Shown here: positions 50,546 to 63,597 of the stretch, one piece after another
Layout of the letters: every line of letters starts with the position of its first letter
How positions within the stretch are numbered: the first letter of the stretch is position 1
Notes under the pieces: model-generated
Database searches by the model: none
The model's input: only the letters and a program-made list of their open reading frames with translations
What the model was told of the DNA's origin: nothing
Program-made: the position numbers and the translations under genes
Source: Phormidesmis priestleyi BC1401
Lineage (GTDB): Bacteria > Cyanobacteriota > Cyanobacteriia > Leptolyngbyales > Leptolyngbyaceae
Assembly: GCF_001650195.1 (NCBI RefSeq)
Contig: NZ_LXYR01000019.1
Location: 1-64,000 of the forward strand
Direction of reading: 5' to 3'
Length of the DNA: 64,000 bases

Positions 50546-51124
50546 ATGAACACAAAAAACAGTCGTAATTCAGTCAAGCTTCTGGCTGGCATTGTTGGAG
50601 TCTTAGGCATCAGCACCTTATTAGGTCTACCTTCACTTGCTTTGATTCGTTCTCAATCATCCCAGACTACTCAAAATCAGCCCCTTTTGTCTCAATCGAC
50701 AGGAGGCAGCACAGGCGGAGCGCCTAGTAGTGGCATAGGCTCAAGCGGTTCGACAACTCCGGGGGGAACGATAAACGGCGATGGGTTATCCAGCCCAAGC
50801 ACGGGGACGGGCACTTTTAGCCCAGGCACAGGCGCAGGCGGTTCGACCGGAGGAACTGGAACAATCGATACGACCACTCCGAGTACGGGGACGGGCACTT
50901 TTAGCCCAGGCACAGGCGCAGGCGGTTCGACCGGAGGAACTGGAACAATCGATACGACTACTCCAGGGGCGGGCACTTTGACTCCGAGTACAGGAACGGT
51001 CGATTCGACTGGAGGAACCGGAATAGACACCACCACTCCGGGCATAGGGACAACCAACACGACAACGCCAAGCACAGGGGGAACGACCAATAGAACGACA
51101 GGCGGCGTGAGAGCGCTTTGGTAG
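50546..51124 (+). CDS. Exported glycine/serine/threonine-rich repetitive protein
   Basis: 192 residues from ATG 50546 with AGGAA before it. Signal peptide (LLAGIVGVLGISTLLGLPSLA), then low-complexity Gly/Ser/Thr sequence without a fold. An 84-base tandem repeat encodes 28 residues (TGTFSPGTGAGGSTGGTGTI and on) twice, and the third unit is degenerate. Likely an extracellular or cell-wall-linked flexible protein or adhesin-like spacer. The L,D-transpeptidase gene follows by about 110 bases on the same strand. Confidence 0.72.
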   Translation: MNTKNSRNSVKLLAGIVGVLGISTLLGLPSLALIRSQSSQTTQNQPLLSQSTGGSTGGAPSSGIGSSGSTTPGGTINGDGLSSPSTGTGTFSPGTGAGGSTGGTGTIDTTTPSTGTGTFSPGTGAGGSTGGTGTIDTTTPGAGTLTPSTGTVDSTGGTGIDTTTPGIGTTNTTTPSTGGTTNRTTGGVRALW

Positions 51125-57964: not shown

Positions 57965-58129
57965 AGAAATTTCCTCTCAAGACAACCGCCGCCATTGTAG
58001 TGCAGGGTTTCAGACGGGGCAAGTGTACTAAACTAAAAGTTGCGATTTCTGATCGTCTTCAAACCCAAGAATGTAACGGGTAGCACTCAGAATCGATATC
58101 ATTGTTCTGTATCGTTGAGTCACTGTGCT

Positions 58130-58909
58130 GTGCTGTCTATCGATCTCTTGACCCATTATCGCCGCCTGAGTCAGCAAGCGTTTACGATCGTAGACGTTGA
58201 GACGACAGGCTATCAGCCTCCTGAGAATCGAGTCATTGAGATCTCGGCGTTAAAAGCCAGCCTTCGAGACGGCATTCAGCATCAGCAAACGCATCTGATC
58301 AATCCTGACGTTTTGATTCCCCAAAAAATCGTTCGATTTACGGGCATTTCTCAAAGCATGATCGAGACGGCTCTGACTCCGGCTGATGTCTGGAAAGACT
58401 ATTTACCGTTGCTTAACACAGGCGTTTTGACCGGGCACAATCTTGAGTTTGATTACGCCTTCATCCGATTTGAGTATGAGCAGTTGCACATTCCGTTTTC
58501 TCGCCCTGCCAGTGAGCAACTCTGCACGGTGGCGCTGTCTCGATTGATGTTGCCCGATTTGCCCTCTCGAAGCTTGCCCGATTTAGTGAGATATTTTGGG
58601 TTTCAGGTGGGTCGATCGCATCGTGCCGCCGCCGACACGCTCGCCTGTTGGCTTTTGGCAGAACATTTACTCAAAGAGATTCAAAATGAGGACGATCGGG
58701 CATTGTTGGCGAGATTTGCTCAAGAGTGGTTGCCGTTGAGAAAAGCGGCTGAGTTGCTCAATTGCTCGACCAAGATGGCTCAAGCCCGATTTGCCAGTGC
58801 CGAACTTGAGCCGCGCGTGTCTCGCCGCAGTGGGGTGTCGATGTATCGACGAGGCGCGATCGAGCAACTGATCACCCAAGATTCGGAAGAACAGCTATCG
58901 TTCTTCTAA
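58130..58909 (+). CDS. 3'-5' exonuclease, DEDDh/DnaQ type
   Basis: About 259 residues from GTG 58130; a longer frame to 58040 adds a non-conserved Cys/Ser-rich start. Exo I FTIVDVETTGYQPP, Exo II TGHNLEFDYAFI and Exo III HRAAADTLACWLL (H-x4-D) are all present, so it is probably active. The C-terminal part (about 190-259) contains a helix-turn-helix-like segment (LRKAAELLNCSTKMAQARFA) that may bind nucleic acid. It is like the DNA polymerase III epsilon exonuclease but has no typical clamp-binding region that I recognise. Monocistronic. Confidence 0.88.
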   Translation: MLSIDLLTHYRRLSQQAFTIVDVETTGYQPPENRVIEISALKASLRDGIQHQQTHLINPDVLIPQKIVRFTGISQSMIETALTPADVWKDYLPLLNTGVLTGHNLEFDYAFIRFEYEQLHIPFSRPASEQLCTVALSRLMLPDLPSRSLPDLVRYFGFQVGRSHRAAADTLACWLLAEHLLKEIQNEDDRALLARFAQEWLPLRKAAELLNCSTKMAQARFASAELEPRVSRRSGVSMYRRGAIEQLITQDSEEQLSFF

Positions 58910-59075: not shown

Positions 59076-59801
59076 ATGGAATACGTCTATATCCTGCAAG
59101 AAATTGATTTTGATGGCACACCAACAGGGCATTACAAGATTGGCAAAACCAAGGCAGGAACTGAAGCACGAAAACGTCAATATCAAGCGGGTAATCCTCG
59201 TTTCTTAGATCCATTTCACACTGTTGAAGTTACTAATTCGCAGACCGTAGAGACAGATCTGCATCATCGATTTAACTCCTATCGATTGAAAGGATATGGC
59301 GGCGGCGATGAATGGTTCAATTTTCACAGTGTAGACATGGAGAAAGTCGTCTCGATTATGAACGAGTACAACGAAACCCCAGCTTATGTTCCTCCCGAAC
59401 CTGTCTACTATCAGCAGAGTTACTCCTCGCCTGATTTTGAATTATCTGGTTTACTGACTAACCCAATCCTAGGTTTTGTACTTCTTTTAGTATTCTTATT
59501 AGTAGTAGTAGGTGGTAGTTTAAAGCCTGTTAATTTAGGCAACCAACCAAGTGGTAAAGAGAAAGCTCGGTGGAGTCAGCGTTCCTGTATTAATCCTAAT
59601 GGTTGTAGCGGGACAATTGATGCAAGTTCCACGGGTTATAAAGCCGCTAACGTGCGGGCTGCCCCCGATAAGAACAGCAAGTTAATTACCACTTTGAATA
59701 ATGGGCAAAAAGTTACGGTTTTTGAAGAATCAAATGGTTGGATCAAAGTCGAGCTAGATAGTGGTATTAAAGGTTGGGTAGCAAACAATCTCGTTAGATA
59801 G
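59076..59801 (+). CDS. GIY-YIG/T5orf172 nuclease-like protein with TM helix and SH3b domain
   Basis: 241 residues. The first 95 residues are a T5orf172 (GIY-YIG) domain: YVYILQEIDFDGTPTGHYKIG, then the arginine of EARKRQYQAGNPR, and DLHHRFNSYRLKGYGGGDEWF with the usual H and the terminal EWF. A Pro/Tyr linker leads to one membrane helix (about 130-150, GFVLLLVFLLVVVGG), then a bacterial SH3 domain (about 185-241: ANVRAAPDKNSKLITTLNNG, then GWVANNLVR). With the nuclease domain inside, the SH3b domain would face the periplasm. Function unknown: defence, DNA processing at the membrane or a regulatory role are all possible. Downstream lies the toxin-antitoxin pair. Confidence 0.82.
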   Translation: MEYVYILQEIDFDGTPTGHYKIGKTKAGTEARKRQYQAGNPRFLDPFHTVEVTNSQTVETDLHHRFNSYRLKGYGGGDEWFNFHSVDMEKVVSIMNEYNETPAYVPPEPVYYQQSYSSPDFELSGLLTNPILGFVLLLVFLLVVVGGSLKPVNLGNQPSGKEKARWSQRSCINPNGCSGTIDASSTGYKAANVRAAPDKNSKLITTLNNGQKVTVFEESNGWIKVELDSGIKGWVANNLVR

Positions 59802-59885
59802 TAGATAGAAGAACAAGCCAGCACAAGCAAATGACCGAGCGATCGCCCAATTTCTTCATAGAATTTACCAAATCCACTAGACTTT

Positions 59886-59907
59886 TGAACTGCTGCCCGA
59901 TCGAGCC
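59886..59907. repeat. 22-bp direct repeat, left copy
   Basis: TGAACTGCTGCCCGATCGAGCC; the identical 22 bases recur at 60600-60621. The two copies bracket the toxin-antitoxin operon. Confidence 0.85.
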
Positions 59908-59971
59908 ACCCACGACCCCACGAGCAACTGCCAGAATGGGCGAAAGAACCCTTAAAAATGGAGGATTCACT

Positions 59972-60205
59972 ATGACTTCACAGCTTCAACAAGTCATTCA
60001 TCTTGCTCAATCACTGTCTTTGGAGGAGCAGCTTGAACTACTAAAAACGTTATCTGCAATGATTCAGCAGCCCCATTCTTCCGATCAAACTACAACAGCA
60101 GACACAGAGTTTTCAGCAGAAAGCTTTCGCCAATCTTGGCAGCAAGCTGTGACTGGGCAAACCTTACCACTCTCCCAACTGTGGGAGGGAATCGACATTG
60201 ACTGA
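59972..60205 (+). CDS. Antitoxin of a RelE-type module
   Basis: 77 residues from ATG 59972, preceded by GGAGG; a longer frame to 59831 lies outside the repeat and is rejected. Start MTSQLQQVIHLAQSLSLEEQ, a helical region, then an acidic Gln/Thr stretch and a Trp/Leu end. Small, acidic and placed directly before a RelE-like toxin with a short overlap, it should be the antitoxin that neutralises it and represses the pair. Confidence 0.82.
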   Translation: MTSQLQQVIHLAQSLSLEEQLELLKTLSAMIQQPHSSDQTTTADTEFSAESFRQSWQQAVTGQTLPLSQLWEGIDID

Positions 60206-60566
60206 TTTACCCATCGTTGAGATTCGCCTCACGCCTGAATTTCAGCGTAAACTGAAAAATCTTGCAAAGAAATATCGCCAGGTTCCCACCGATCTTCAGC
60301 CTGTTCTTAAGCAGTTACAACACGGAGAGTTTCTAGGAGATCAAATCCCTGGCATTGGCTTCACGACAATGAAAGTGCGGATTAGAAACAGTGATACCCA
60401 AAAGGGTAAAAGTGGTGGCTATCGTCTGATCTATTGGATCTCATCCACTGAGTTAATCGTTTTGCTAGATATCTACTCAAAGTCTGACCAAGGAGATATT
60501 GAAGTAGATGAGATTCGGCAAATCATCAAAGGATTTAACATAACTTCTGAATCGACAGATCCTTAG
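60198..60566 (+). CDS. RelE/HigB-type toxin
   Basis: 122 residues from TTG 60198, overlapping the antitoxin by eight bases. RelE fold: IVEIRLTPEFQRKLKNLAKK, then GFTTMKVRIRNSDTQKGKSG, GYRLIYWI and LLDIYSKSDQGDIEVDEI. Expected to cut mRNA on the ribosome (or inhibit gyrase if ParE-like). No inactivating mutation seen. An ATG inside the first codons is absent, so the TTG start is the likely one. Cotranscribed with the antitoxin. Confidence 0.85.
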   Translation: MTDLPIVEIRLTPEFQRKLKNLAKKYRQVPTDLQPVLKQLQHGEFLGDQIPGIGFTTMKVRIRNSDTQKGKSGGYRLIYWISSTELIVLLDIYSKSDQGDIEVDEIRQIIKGFNITSESTDP

Positions 60567-60599
60567 AATTTTCTTCGCATATGGTTCTTAAACTGATTG

Positions 60600-60621
60600 T
60601 GAACTGCTGCCCGATCGAGCC
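60600..60621. repeat. 22-bp direct repeat, right copy
   Basis: Identical to 59886-59907. It lies 11 bases before the stop of the convergent photolyase gene. Confidence 0.85.
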
Positions 60622-60632
60622 TTGCCCTCACA

Positions 60633-62288
60633 TCACAACTCCAGCAAGCTTAACTGAATGCCTGCTTTTGGGTCTAGCGGCTGCACTTTAACTCGTGGAG
60701 AAGACTTGTGAGGAGTAATCTCAAGATTGGCGACAAACCAAGTGCGGAGATCTCTAGCTTGTTCTGAAGTCAAGCTATCCAGGTCGATCGCTGATGGAAA
60801 TAAGTCTCGATCGTCCTGTTCTGCCCAACTAATCTCACTCGCGAATCGCTCAGAGCCAAACGGCACGAGAGACTTAGGAAGGCGCGCCAACTGGGACAAC
60901 ACATTTTCTTGCTTGAGAAATCCTTGACGCTGATGTTGCAGTTGCTGCACTCGCTGATGCCGTGCCGCTTTGTAGTTCAAAATTGGGGTCGGATATCCCT
61001 TGATGCGAGGAGGCAACCCCAACGCTGCCGCAGGGAGGTGAGCCAGTTCGGGCACCCAGCGTTTAATGAAGGTGCCGTCAGGGTCGCAGCGATCGACCGC
61101 CGTTTGTTCTGGGTTATAAATGCGAGTCCAGCTTTTGTTGGCGCAGTGAGTCACCCCGGCTTGCATCGCCCATTGATAGTGATCGATCGGGCAATCTCCG
61201 TCGATTAAATGTCGCATGAAGTGCAAGGCTCCATAGCGCCAGTCGATGCCTAAAAGATTGCTTAAAAAACTGGCATGAATCGCACGAGAGCGAAAGTTCA
61301 TTTCTTTCCAGCCGCCTGTCGCGAGTAGACATCGGGCTGCGGCATCGACGATCGGAAATCCCGTTTCGCCAGTTTGCCACGCTTGATAGAGTTCTTCGTT
61401 AAACTGCCAGCCTTCGTCATCAAAGATGGTGTAGAGCGATCGCAGTTCTAATTGCGGCAGATAGCGAAATCGTTGCGTGAATCCGCTGCCCCAGCGCAGG
61501 CGACTGATCAGTTGTTTCGCACTGCGCTGAATTCGACGATCGTCAGAAGCCTTTAAAGGTCGCACTGCCTGATAGCATTCTCGCGGAGAAATCACGCCAA
61601 ATTTGAGATAAGGACTCAACCCCGTCGTCGCATCTCCACTCGGATAGGACAGTTGCCAATAGTAGCGATCGACCTTTTCGGTCAGAAATTCTTGCAGCAA
61701 ATCACGAGCCGCTTGAGTGCCACCGGGCGGAATCGGTTTTTTGTCGGGCAACAATCCTAAATCGGTGAGGGTCGGCAACGGTTCGCCCAGCACATCGTCG
61801 GGGGTTTGAATGCGGCTCGGAGTCGGCACCATTTCGGCACTCATCTCAGTAAACCAGTGCTTGCGATAGTGCGTATAAGGAACGAGATCATTCAGTCCCG
61901 CGATCGGCTCGAACCAGCGAATCTTAAGATCCTGTTCGGCTAAGACTCGATTTAGCCGCGCATCTCTGACGCGTCCATAAATCCGCTCGTAGTCAAGGGA
62001 GGCATAAATGCCGTCTGCCTGAGTCTCGCGAATCAGTTGAGGCAGCACCTCGATCGGATCGCCAAATCGCAAAATCAGTCGTCCGCCTCGTTGACGAAGC
62101 TCTTGATCGAGCGAATTCAGACTCGCCAACATGAATGCGACTCGCGCTGAACTGGTTTCGGGGTGATGCAAGAGAGCACGATCAAACACAAATACTGGAA
62201 TCACTGCACCGCGAGACACGGCTCGATATAAAGGCGCATGATCCGCAATGCGTAAATCCCGGCGAAACCAAACGATCGTGCGGTTCAT
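60633..62288 (-). CDS. Cryptochrome/photolyase family flavoprotein, divergent
   Basis: 551 residues. The N-terminal antenna-binding alpha/beta domain starts MNRTIVWFRRDLRIADHAPL. The C-terminal FAD domain (about 200-470) has the block GETGFPIVDAAARCLLATGG, then HASFLSNLLGIDWRYGALHF and IDHYQWAMQAG, with SWTRIYNPEQTAVDRCDPDG. These deviate from class I CPD photolyases (no ELIWREFY; WTRIYNP for the usual FRIFNP), so it belongs to another branch of the family. It may repair DNA or be a light sensor. A charged C-terminal extension of about 80 residues is unusual. Confidence 0.85.
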   Translation of the reverse strand: MNRTIVWFRRDLRIADHAPLYRAVSRGAVIPVFVFDRALLHHPETSSARVAFMLASLNSLDQELRQRGGRLILRFGDPIEVLPQLIRETQADGIYASLDYERIYGRVRDARLNRVLAEQDLKIRWFEPIAGLNDLVPYTHYRKHWFTEMSAEMVPTPSRIQTPDDVLGEPLPTLTDLGLLPDKKPIPPGGTQAARDLLQEFLTEKVDRYYWQLSYPSGDATTGLSPYLKFGVISPRECYQAVRPLKASDDRRIQRSAKQLISRLRWGSGFTQRFRYLPQLELRSLYTIFDDEGWQFNEELYQAWQTGETGFPIVDAAARCLLATGGWKEMNFRSRAIHASFLSNLLGIDWRYGALHFMRHLIDGDCPIDHYQWAMQAGVTHCANKSWTRIYNPEQTAVDRCDPDGTFIKRWVPELAHLPAAALGLPPRIKGYPTPILNYKAARHQRVQQLQHQRQGFLKQENVLSQLARLPKSLVPFGSERFASEISWAEQDDRDLFPSAIDLDSLTSEQARDLRTWFVANLEITPHKSSPRVKVQPLDPKAGIQLSLLEL

Positions 62289-62397
62289 AAACTCCGATTC
62301 ATCCGTACTTCTCTATTATCGATCTTCTAGATCGAAATCAGGCGCTAGACTTCCTTAAGAGCTTGATAGGATGAGATCAGGCAAAGCGGAGCGGGTT

Positions 62398-63597
62398 ATG
62401 AAGCGTGTCACAGACCAGACAGAACCAGAACGCCCAGATCATCCTGATGATTGGTCATGGCGGTTTTGGCAAGTGGTGCCGCTCTATCCCTACGGCAAGC
62501 GGCGAACGCTTCGCAAAGAAGTTGTTAAAGACACGATCTGGACGTTTGATCAGATTCAAGGGATCTTTTATGTGGTTGTGCCGATTCGGATGACGGTGGT
62601 GAAACTTGAAGCGGGAGGCTTGTTGGTGTATGCCCCGATCGCGCCCACTCCACAATGTATTCGGCTTGTCAGAGAATTGGTAGCAGACCACGGAGACGTA
62701 AAATACATTATTCTGCCGACCTCATCGGGGTTAGAACACAAAGTCTTTGTCGGACCGTTTGCTCGACAGTTTCCCAACGCCCAAATCTTCGTCGCCCCGC
62801 ATCAGTGGAGCTTTCCGGTCAACCTGCCGCTAAGTTGGTTGGGGTTTCCAGCAAAGCGGACTCAAACTCTGCCAGACGACAGCCGCAACGCCCCTTTTTG
62901 CGATGACTTTGACTACGAGATTCTAGACATCGATTTGGGGGCGGGTTCGTTTGGTGAGGTAGCATTTTTCCATCGACGATCGCGCACGCTGCTCGTCACT
63001 GATTCCGTCCTGGCGGTTCCAGAAGATCCGCCAGACATTGTTCAGCTTGACACCTATTCACTCCTCTTTCACGCCAAAGATCACGCCTCCGATCGGGTCG
63101 AAGATACTCCGTCTAATCGTCGCAAAGGCTGGTGGCGAATGGCTTTGTTTGCGTTTTATTTCCGCCCCAGCGCATTAGAACCTCTCGGACTCGGAGAAAT
63201 CTTGCGCGATGCTTCTAAAGCCTCCGATCGCTCCAAAAAAGCCTATTTTGGGCTGTTTCCATTCAAATGGCGAGAAAACTGGCAGCGATCATTTCAATCT
63301 CTGCGAGGAAACGGGAGACTATTTGTGGCTCCGATTCTGCAAACCATTATTCTCAACCGATCGCCAGAACAGACGTTAGAGTGGGCAGATCAGGTATCAA
63401 AATGGGACTTTGAGCGGATTATTCCGTGTCACTTAGAGTCTCCGATCTCGGCAACGCCTCAACAGTTTCGTCAAGCTTTCACGTTTTTAGACGATCAGGC
63501 GGCGGGAATGCTGCCGGAAGAAGACTTTAAGTTTCTCTGGCAGATCGAAGAACGACTCAACCGATCGGGGGTCACACCACCTAGAGGAAAGGTGTAG
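62398..63597 (+). CDS. DUF4336 family protein (metallo-hydrolase-like)
   Basis: 399 residues from ATG 62398, with GGAG a few bases before it. The first part (about 20-190) resembles a metallo-beta-lactamase fold: VVKLEAGGLLVYAPIAPTPQ, YIILPTSSGLEHKVFVGPFA and FFHRRSRTLLVTDSVLAV. Full zinc-ligand HxHxDH is not visible, so it may bind metal differently or not at all. The rest is an unknown domain with FYFRPSALEPLG and CHLESPISATPQQFRQAF. DUF4336 occurs in cyanobacteria and plants; function unassigned. Divergent from the photolyase. Confidence 0.83.
   Translation: MKRVTDQTEPERPDHPDDWSWRFWQVVPLYPYGKRRTLRKEVVKDTIWTFDQIQGIFYVVVPIRMTVVKLEAGGLLVYAPIAPTPQCIRLVRELVADHGDVKYIILPTSSGLEHKVFVGPFARQFPNAQIFVAPHQWSFPVNLPLSWLGFPAKRTQTLPDDSRNAPFCDDFDYEILDIDLGAGSFGEVAFFHRRSRTLLVTDSVLAVPEDPPDIVQLDTYSLLFHAKDHASDRVEDTPSNRRKGWWRMALFAFYFRPSALEPLGLGEILRDASKASDRSKKAYFGLFPFKWRENWQRSFQSLRGNGRLFVAPILQTIILNRSPEQTLEWADQVSKWDFERIIPCHLESPISATPQQFRQAFTFLDDQAAGMLPEEDFKFLWQIEERLNRSGVTPPRGKV

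Follow-up and report, generated by a model that had tools for sequence, protein, structure and literature searches.

A predicted toxin-antitoxin pair behind a NACHT gene-end relic in Phormidesmis priestleyi: probable transposase-free insertion with long target duplication

The window analysed here, a contig stretch of 64,000 nucleotides from Phormidesmis priestleyi BC1401, contains near its right end a small two-gene unit enclosed by a short direct repeat. The pair is predicted to be a RelN/RelE-type toxin-antitoxin (TA) module, and no transposase gene is present in the unit. The toxin falls slightly short of curated cut-offs (RelE 25.6 of 27 bits, ParE 20.2 of 23, TIGR02385 27.8 of 27.9), its E values being 1.5e-5 for Pfam RelE and 2.7e-6 for TIGR02385, both slightly under cut-off. 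The left neighbouring gene, previously labelled GIY-YIG, encodes a T5orf172/MUG113 domain together with an SH3 domain. The features of the region are the following:

58040-58909, + strand: DEDDh-type exonuclease gene (RNase_T), left neighbour; convergent with and adjacent to the photolyase gene in relatives
59076-59801, + strand: gene for a T5orf172/MUG113 (GIY-YIG-like) and SH3 protein; missing from relatives' exonuclease/photolyase junctions
59878-59948, + strand: left relic of a NACHT gene tail (profile positions 24-95, 40.9 bits, E 2.7e-11)
59886-59907, + strand: left 22-mer, coding for ELLPDRA in the old NACHT frame (family consensus ELLRDRA)
59960-59964, + strand: GGAGG, resembling a ribosome-binding site in sequence, 7 bp upstream of the antitoxin ATG
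59972-60205, + strand: antitoxin gene, RelN-like, 77 aa (NCBIfam RelN antitoxin E 6.6e-12, below cut-off)
60198-60566, + strand: RelE/ParE-superfamily toxin gene, 122 aa, with an 8-bp overlap with the antitoxin gene
60597-60621, + strand: right repeat copy, 25 nt with 24 identical, containing the 22-mer at 60600-60621; read as a truncated second tail
60633-62288, - strand: DNA photolyase/cryptochrome-like gene, right neighbour, its stop codon 11 bp from the right 22-mer
62371-63597, + strand: DUF4336 gene; directly after the exonuclease gene in congener G001, where everything between the two is missing

The perfect 22-bp repeat reported in the preliminary description was recovered on both sides of the pair. 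Exact copies of the 22-mer TGAACTGCTGCCCGATCGAGCC lie at 59886-59907 and 60600-60621, and the extended repeat comprises 25 nt, of which 24 are identical (59883-59907 and 60597-60621, spacing 714). No additional copy occurs in the window even with up to 3 mismatches allowed, and the chance expectation across 100 dinucleotide shuffles is 0. In the whole 5.55-Mb genome, the sole further match, with 3 mismatches, falls within a substrate-binding gene of ABC-transporter type and appears to be a chance hit. With this as the only match elsewhere, the genome does not contain the 22-mer as a dispersed repeat, and an origin from a dispersed or HIP1-type repeat was discarded on the same ground; the proposed search for other TA pairs flanked by the 22-mer thus finds none in the genome. 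No long near-perfect inverted repeat was found at the borders of the unit.

The identity of the repeat emerged from a family-wide DNA search, in which short matches start at the left 22-mer and stop before the antitoxin gene, in genomes that are otherwise dissimilar there. The matched places are the 3' ends of large genes encoding NNH2-NACHT-HEAT proteins of approximately 900-1200 aa, and the repeat, read in frame as LELLRDRATNDPDEQLREWAQEQLK, corresponds to the conserved end of these proteins, a tail with 66% amino-acid identity behind a variable HEAT region at 23-39%. The sequence around the left 22-mer is a decayed, frameshifted version of the final ~100 bp of an immune-receptor-like NNH2-NACHT-HEAT (STAND ATPase) gene, with BLAST matches both to NACHT tails and to the array tails described below and with weaker similarity spanning from ~59853 to 59960. 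A single base is deleted after the 22-mer, which disrupts the former reading frame, and a stop is also present, marking this copy as a relic. The tail stands directly upstream of the antitoxin gene, and the alignment is continuous over the tail/RelN junction in two array loci (L229 and L201). Within the ~100-bp NACHT tail that came with the unit, these 22 bases have been preserved best. The block between the repeat copies, first described as holding exactly the antitoxin and the toxin, does contain both genes but also the rest of the left tail relic, from 59908 to ~59960. No NNH2-NACHT gene was found in the genome of the window or in its congener, with an identical search detecting one in G004 and in G023, and the donor NACHT gene is therefore not seen. 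Two other properties of the tail were considered and rejected: DNA-level constraint of the kind expected of an att-like site (synonymous codon identity 0.488 in the tail vs 0.461 elsewhere, with no clear excess), and carriage on plasmids, for which the search returned one Streptomyces HEAT protein only.

In relatives, the exonuclease and photolyase genes are convergent and close together (~12 bp apart in L021), and their junctions contain neither the T5orf172 gene nor the TA pair. No copy of the 22-mer was found in any relative's junction, and no relative shows the unit in place; the single-copy empty site that had been anticipated was accordingly absent from this locus, where the relatives' junctions hold zero copies. 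Since the empty junctions lack the 22-mer, either the unit arrived with its tails or it is the remnant of a local NACHT locus, and a target duplication of the present exonuclease/photolyase site can be dismissed. In congener G001, everything from the T5orf172 gene through the photolyase gene is missing, with 68 bp remaining between the flanking alignments (L157 3371-3438), so the photolyase, T5orf172 and TA genes were either lost from this congener or never present between its exonuclease and DUF4336 genes. In two loci (L072 and L080), another TA gene or pair occupies the exonuclease/photolyase junction, which suggests that this junction is a tolerated landing site. The genes at these two junctions, which belong to other genera, are AbrB/Phd-like, with an additional PIN gene in L072. 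Overwriting of the photolyase C-terminus by the insert was also considered and rejected, as its QLSLLEL ending is within normal variation.

Whether comparable modules elsewhere carry flanking repeats was assessed with RelE homologues from relatives, which were not selected on repeats and from which the window and the array were left out, by scoring direct repeats between upstream and downstream flanks (score of at least 35). Direct repeats of 30-105 bp flank 10 of 31 RelE modules, as opposed to 13 of 1480 random positions (0.9%) and 6 of 781 ORF-anchored controls (Fisher p 2.6e-12). The count of independent events is somewhat below ten, since two of these modules, from different genera, appear to share one insertion. 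In the module at G019:C66 the repeat copies are distant from the TA genes, and no relative had both flanks for an empty-site comparison. The repeat sequences are mostly unrelated to each other and, where examined, represent ends or inner parts of neighbouring genes. For the module at G006:C1:4.66 Mb, joining the two flanks through a single 105-bp copy gives a sequence that aligns without interruption to three congeners (75-83%); these congeners hold the empty site with a single copy of the target. That the window pair was inserted as a unit, with duplication of its ends and without a transposase, is supported by these precise empty sites at a sister module and by the lack of the pair in the relatives' junctions. 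The inserts consist of scarcely more than the TA genes (640-760 bp in eight of the ten) and show no terminal inverted repeats at their ends; insert termini shared among the ten were likewise sought, and none were found. As a separate observation, some RelE modules appear to split effector-type genes (L011 1184-1951, L014 1136-1929, L015 1119-1969), with the C-terminal part left as an independent ORF starting anew at the duplicated target.

A class-wide scan detected the NACHT tail in 94 of 390 genomes, and multi-tail arrays were identified in 17 loci from at least five families. In these arrays, an intact anchor gene encoding NNH2, NACHT and HEAT regions is followed by the succession NACHT tail - TA - tail - TA - tail, with one tail per TA module or small group of modules, reaching five tails in L202 and four each in L201, L203 and L229. 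The NACHT gene and its TA genes lie on one strand and are nearly contiguous. Nearly all genes in the 29 inter-tail intervals (19.6 kb) are TA-like and lie on the NACHT strand, a proportion that is descriptive because the loci were chosen for having several tails. Several of the genomes analysed are draft or metagenome assemblies. Pfam/NCBIfam matches among the 59 inter-tail ORFs include ParE (7), PIN (5, plus 2 PIN_3), HigB (3), RelN (3) and RAYT (2), as well as PemK/MazF, HicA, HicB, MntA and AF2212/VapB types. Later tails are flush with the preceding stop codon (median 0 bp), 19 of 28 lying within 15 bp compared with 13.5% at random, and the duplicated part measures ~40-135 bp and extends at most 12 bp beyond the tail start on the upstream side. 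Cassette tails resemble the tail of their own NACHT gene (0.82) more than those of others (0.71; permutation p 2e-4), although common descent, and not copying, may account for part of this likeness. A search of the open-access literature returned no description of TA arrays at the ends of NACHT genes.

Two further observations concern the array tails. A REP-associated Y1 transposase gene lies directly behind or near the NACHT tail in L201 (4420-4887), L205 (5403-5861), L219 (4505-4927), L232 (4904-5497) and L245 (5723-6214). Inserts of ~18-26 bp occupy the same point (GCG/ATCG) in non-NACHT tails (L201 5296-5315, 6147-6166 and 7209-7228; L207 9725-9744; the second tails of L236, L237 and L245) and differ between genera. 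A hidden attachment site in the ~24-bp inserts of L201 t2-t4, L207 t2, L236 and L237 was rejected on account of their position at GCG/ATCG, their varying sequence and their resemblance to small dispersed cyanobacterial repeats that target HIP1-like sites; they still show the common ancestry of L201 t2-t4.

The array geometry bears on the right copy of the window repeat, which is limited to 25 bp, does not match the tail profile alone and has no significant extension (left p 0.17, right p 0.80). The short length and the lack of extension would suit an origin in which the left copy alone is a NACHT relic and the right copy arose by a later short ectopic copy or conversion at the photolyase end. 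Such an origin nevertheless appears unlikely, as the right copy lies ~33 bp from the toxin stop, the offset predicted by the array geometry, so that tail position 1 would fall ~2-4 bp past the toxin stop as it does in arrays, and both 22-mer copies carry the same private base (CTGCCC instead of CTGCGC). The right copy would represent a truncated second tail, of which the part outside the 25-bp core is no longer recognisable.

Arrays of this kind could in principle grow by tandem duplication, in which unequal crossing-over or slippage duplicates the NACHT 3' end together with the adjoining TA genes, followed by loss and with no TA insertion at all. Some arrays may indeed have grown this way, for example L209, where tail and antitoxin form a 315-bp near-tandem duplicate at 90%, and the resemblance of cassette tails to the resident NACHT tail points in the same direction. 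As a general explanation, however, it is quite unlikely: successive cassettes belong mostly to unrelated TA families, the repeats stop within 12 bp of the tail start on its upstream side, and the empty-site comparison at a non-NACHT locus represents TA gain with duplication. An insertion sequence or transposon that made its own target-site duplication and has since lost its transposase would account for direct repeats around an insert, and several NACHT arrays do contain a Y1 transposase gene; yet the insert ends lack inverted repeats, the ten inserts share no conserved termini and barely exceed their TA genes (640-760 bp in eight), and the duplications, variable between 30 and 135 bp, are larger than nearly all IS target duplications, making this origin very improbable.

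TA genes are known as cargo of superintegron cassettes and pdif modules. A perfect short repeat at both ends, the lack of an internal transposase and the TA cargo would all be expected if the 22-mer were the attachment site of a trans-acting, integron- or Xer-like recombinase and the TA pair its cassette. This is nonetheless highly improbable, given that the genome contains no further 22-mer and the relatives' exonuclease/photolyase junctions none, that the repeat is a coding NACHT tail of which ~40 to 135 bp are repeated among arrays, and that the repeats of sister RelE modules are unrelated in sequence, with insert ends free of inverted repeats. The initial view of the 22-mer as a specific recombination site is thus replaced by that of a NACHT-tail remnant, which the empty junctions lack.

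Whole cassettes differ between otherwise orthologous arrays. Three loci of one genus, L201, L205 and L207, are orthologous (L201~L205 88% and L201~L207 84%, over >3.3 kb); among them, L205 has one additional RelN/RelE+tail unit between the NACHT and RAYT genes, and one cassette occupies the third place in L201 and the first in L207. Individual cassettes, together with their tails, also recur across genera and families (L202~L205 79%), and L204 and L231, from two families, share a cassette at 81.5% while their NACHT genes share 73%. Within the genus of the window, a MazEF pair in G001 adjoins a tail relic whose core equals the 22-mer at 21/22. By eye, a MazEF pair adjoining a tail relic in G001 (L188 1840-2450 and flanks, G001:C53) is additionally bordered by a ~65-bp duplicate of the start of the neighbouring haemagglutinin-type gene.

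The window unit is best explained, with a probability of roughly 80%, as an orphan 'tail-TA-tail' unit stemming from transposase-free insertion at a NACHT gene end with long target duplication. A RelN/RelE addiction module would have entered the 3' end of an NNH2-NACHT-HEAT gene with no transposase involved, leaving a second copy of ~100 bp of the gene end beyond the module. In many cyanobacteria, recurrent events at one gene end would have produced arrays of the form NACHT-tail-TA-tail-TA-tail, in which homologous recombination between tails may cause gain, loss or transfer of whole cassettes. The unit would then have come between the exonuclease and photolyase genes by relocation, or by loss of a NACHT gene residing there; the NACHT body would have been lost from the genome and the tails would have decayed until 22-25 bp remained identical on both sides. 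Parsimony favours insertion over precise excision as the direction, a staggered break might, for example, have captured a TA fragment and then been filled in, as the underlying DNA chemistry, and addiction would maintain the unit.

Insertion with long target duplication should leave a flanking repeat, derived from the target, and an empty site in relatives. The flanking repeat measures 25 nt here and 30-105 bp at the ten sister modules; its target origin is evident in the left copy, a NACHT 3' end, and in gene-end or internal duplicates at the sister modules; and the empty site, lacking at the window locus, is present in three congeners for G006:C1:4.66 Mb. Because relatives hold no copy of the repeat, the window unit is not classed as having been inserted first-hand where it now stands.

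For restriction-modification (RM) genes, insertion with long target duplication, on a scale of about 100 bp, has been described (Nobusato et al. 2000; Furuta et al. 2010; summarised in PMC3874152), and PMC3874152 gives the long, variable duplication pattern for RM systems only. The present case is similar to the RM case described there in involving an addiction pair, no transposase and unrelated targets, and differs in that type II/VII TA modules of filamentous cyanobacteria are concerned and that one gene end is reused to form arrays. In Microcystis aeruginosa PCC 7806, a TA module lies between two 152-bp direct repeats behind the orthocaspase gene MaOC1, likewise combining a ParE/ParD-like TA module, identical direct repeats and a caspase-type neighbour in a cyanobacterium; those repeats, however, begin past the MaOC1 stop codon and contain inverted repeats, and the passages on this locus report neither an insertion mechanism nor arrays (PMC7935541). 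Polymorphic toxin cassette arrays also combine gene 3' ends with exchangeable downstream toxin modules, as outlined in PMC3482391, whereas the pairs considered here are intracellular TA modules without secreted C-terminal toxin domains, and the NACHT frame is not re-fused to a toxin. Chromosomal integrons resemble the arrays in that TA and other cassettes follow an anchor with related repeats between them, but here the anchor gene's own coding end serves as the repeat and the inserts have no common termini; no integrase ORF was evident in the array intervals and no attC-like structure was seen.

It is conceivable, though doubtful, that NNH2-NACHT immune-type genes serve as platforms for exchangeable TA arrays, with the conserved tail that follows the variable HEAT sensor reused as homology by which genomes exchange whole TA cassettes, and with the NACHT protein and TA pairs working together; on such a platform, the TA pairs might act, for example, as effectors of a sensor or as addiction locks on it, which is equally tentative. 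How small TA pairs spread without a visible mobility gene is an old question, and cyanobacteria offer a readable record of it in near-TA-size inserts, duplicated target borders, empty sites in congeners and differing orthologous arrays. This record makes the insertion step directly testable and ties TA mobility to NACHT immune-type genes. Elsewhere in the window, tandem 84-nt repeats occupy 50790-51035, probably within a coding region.
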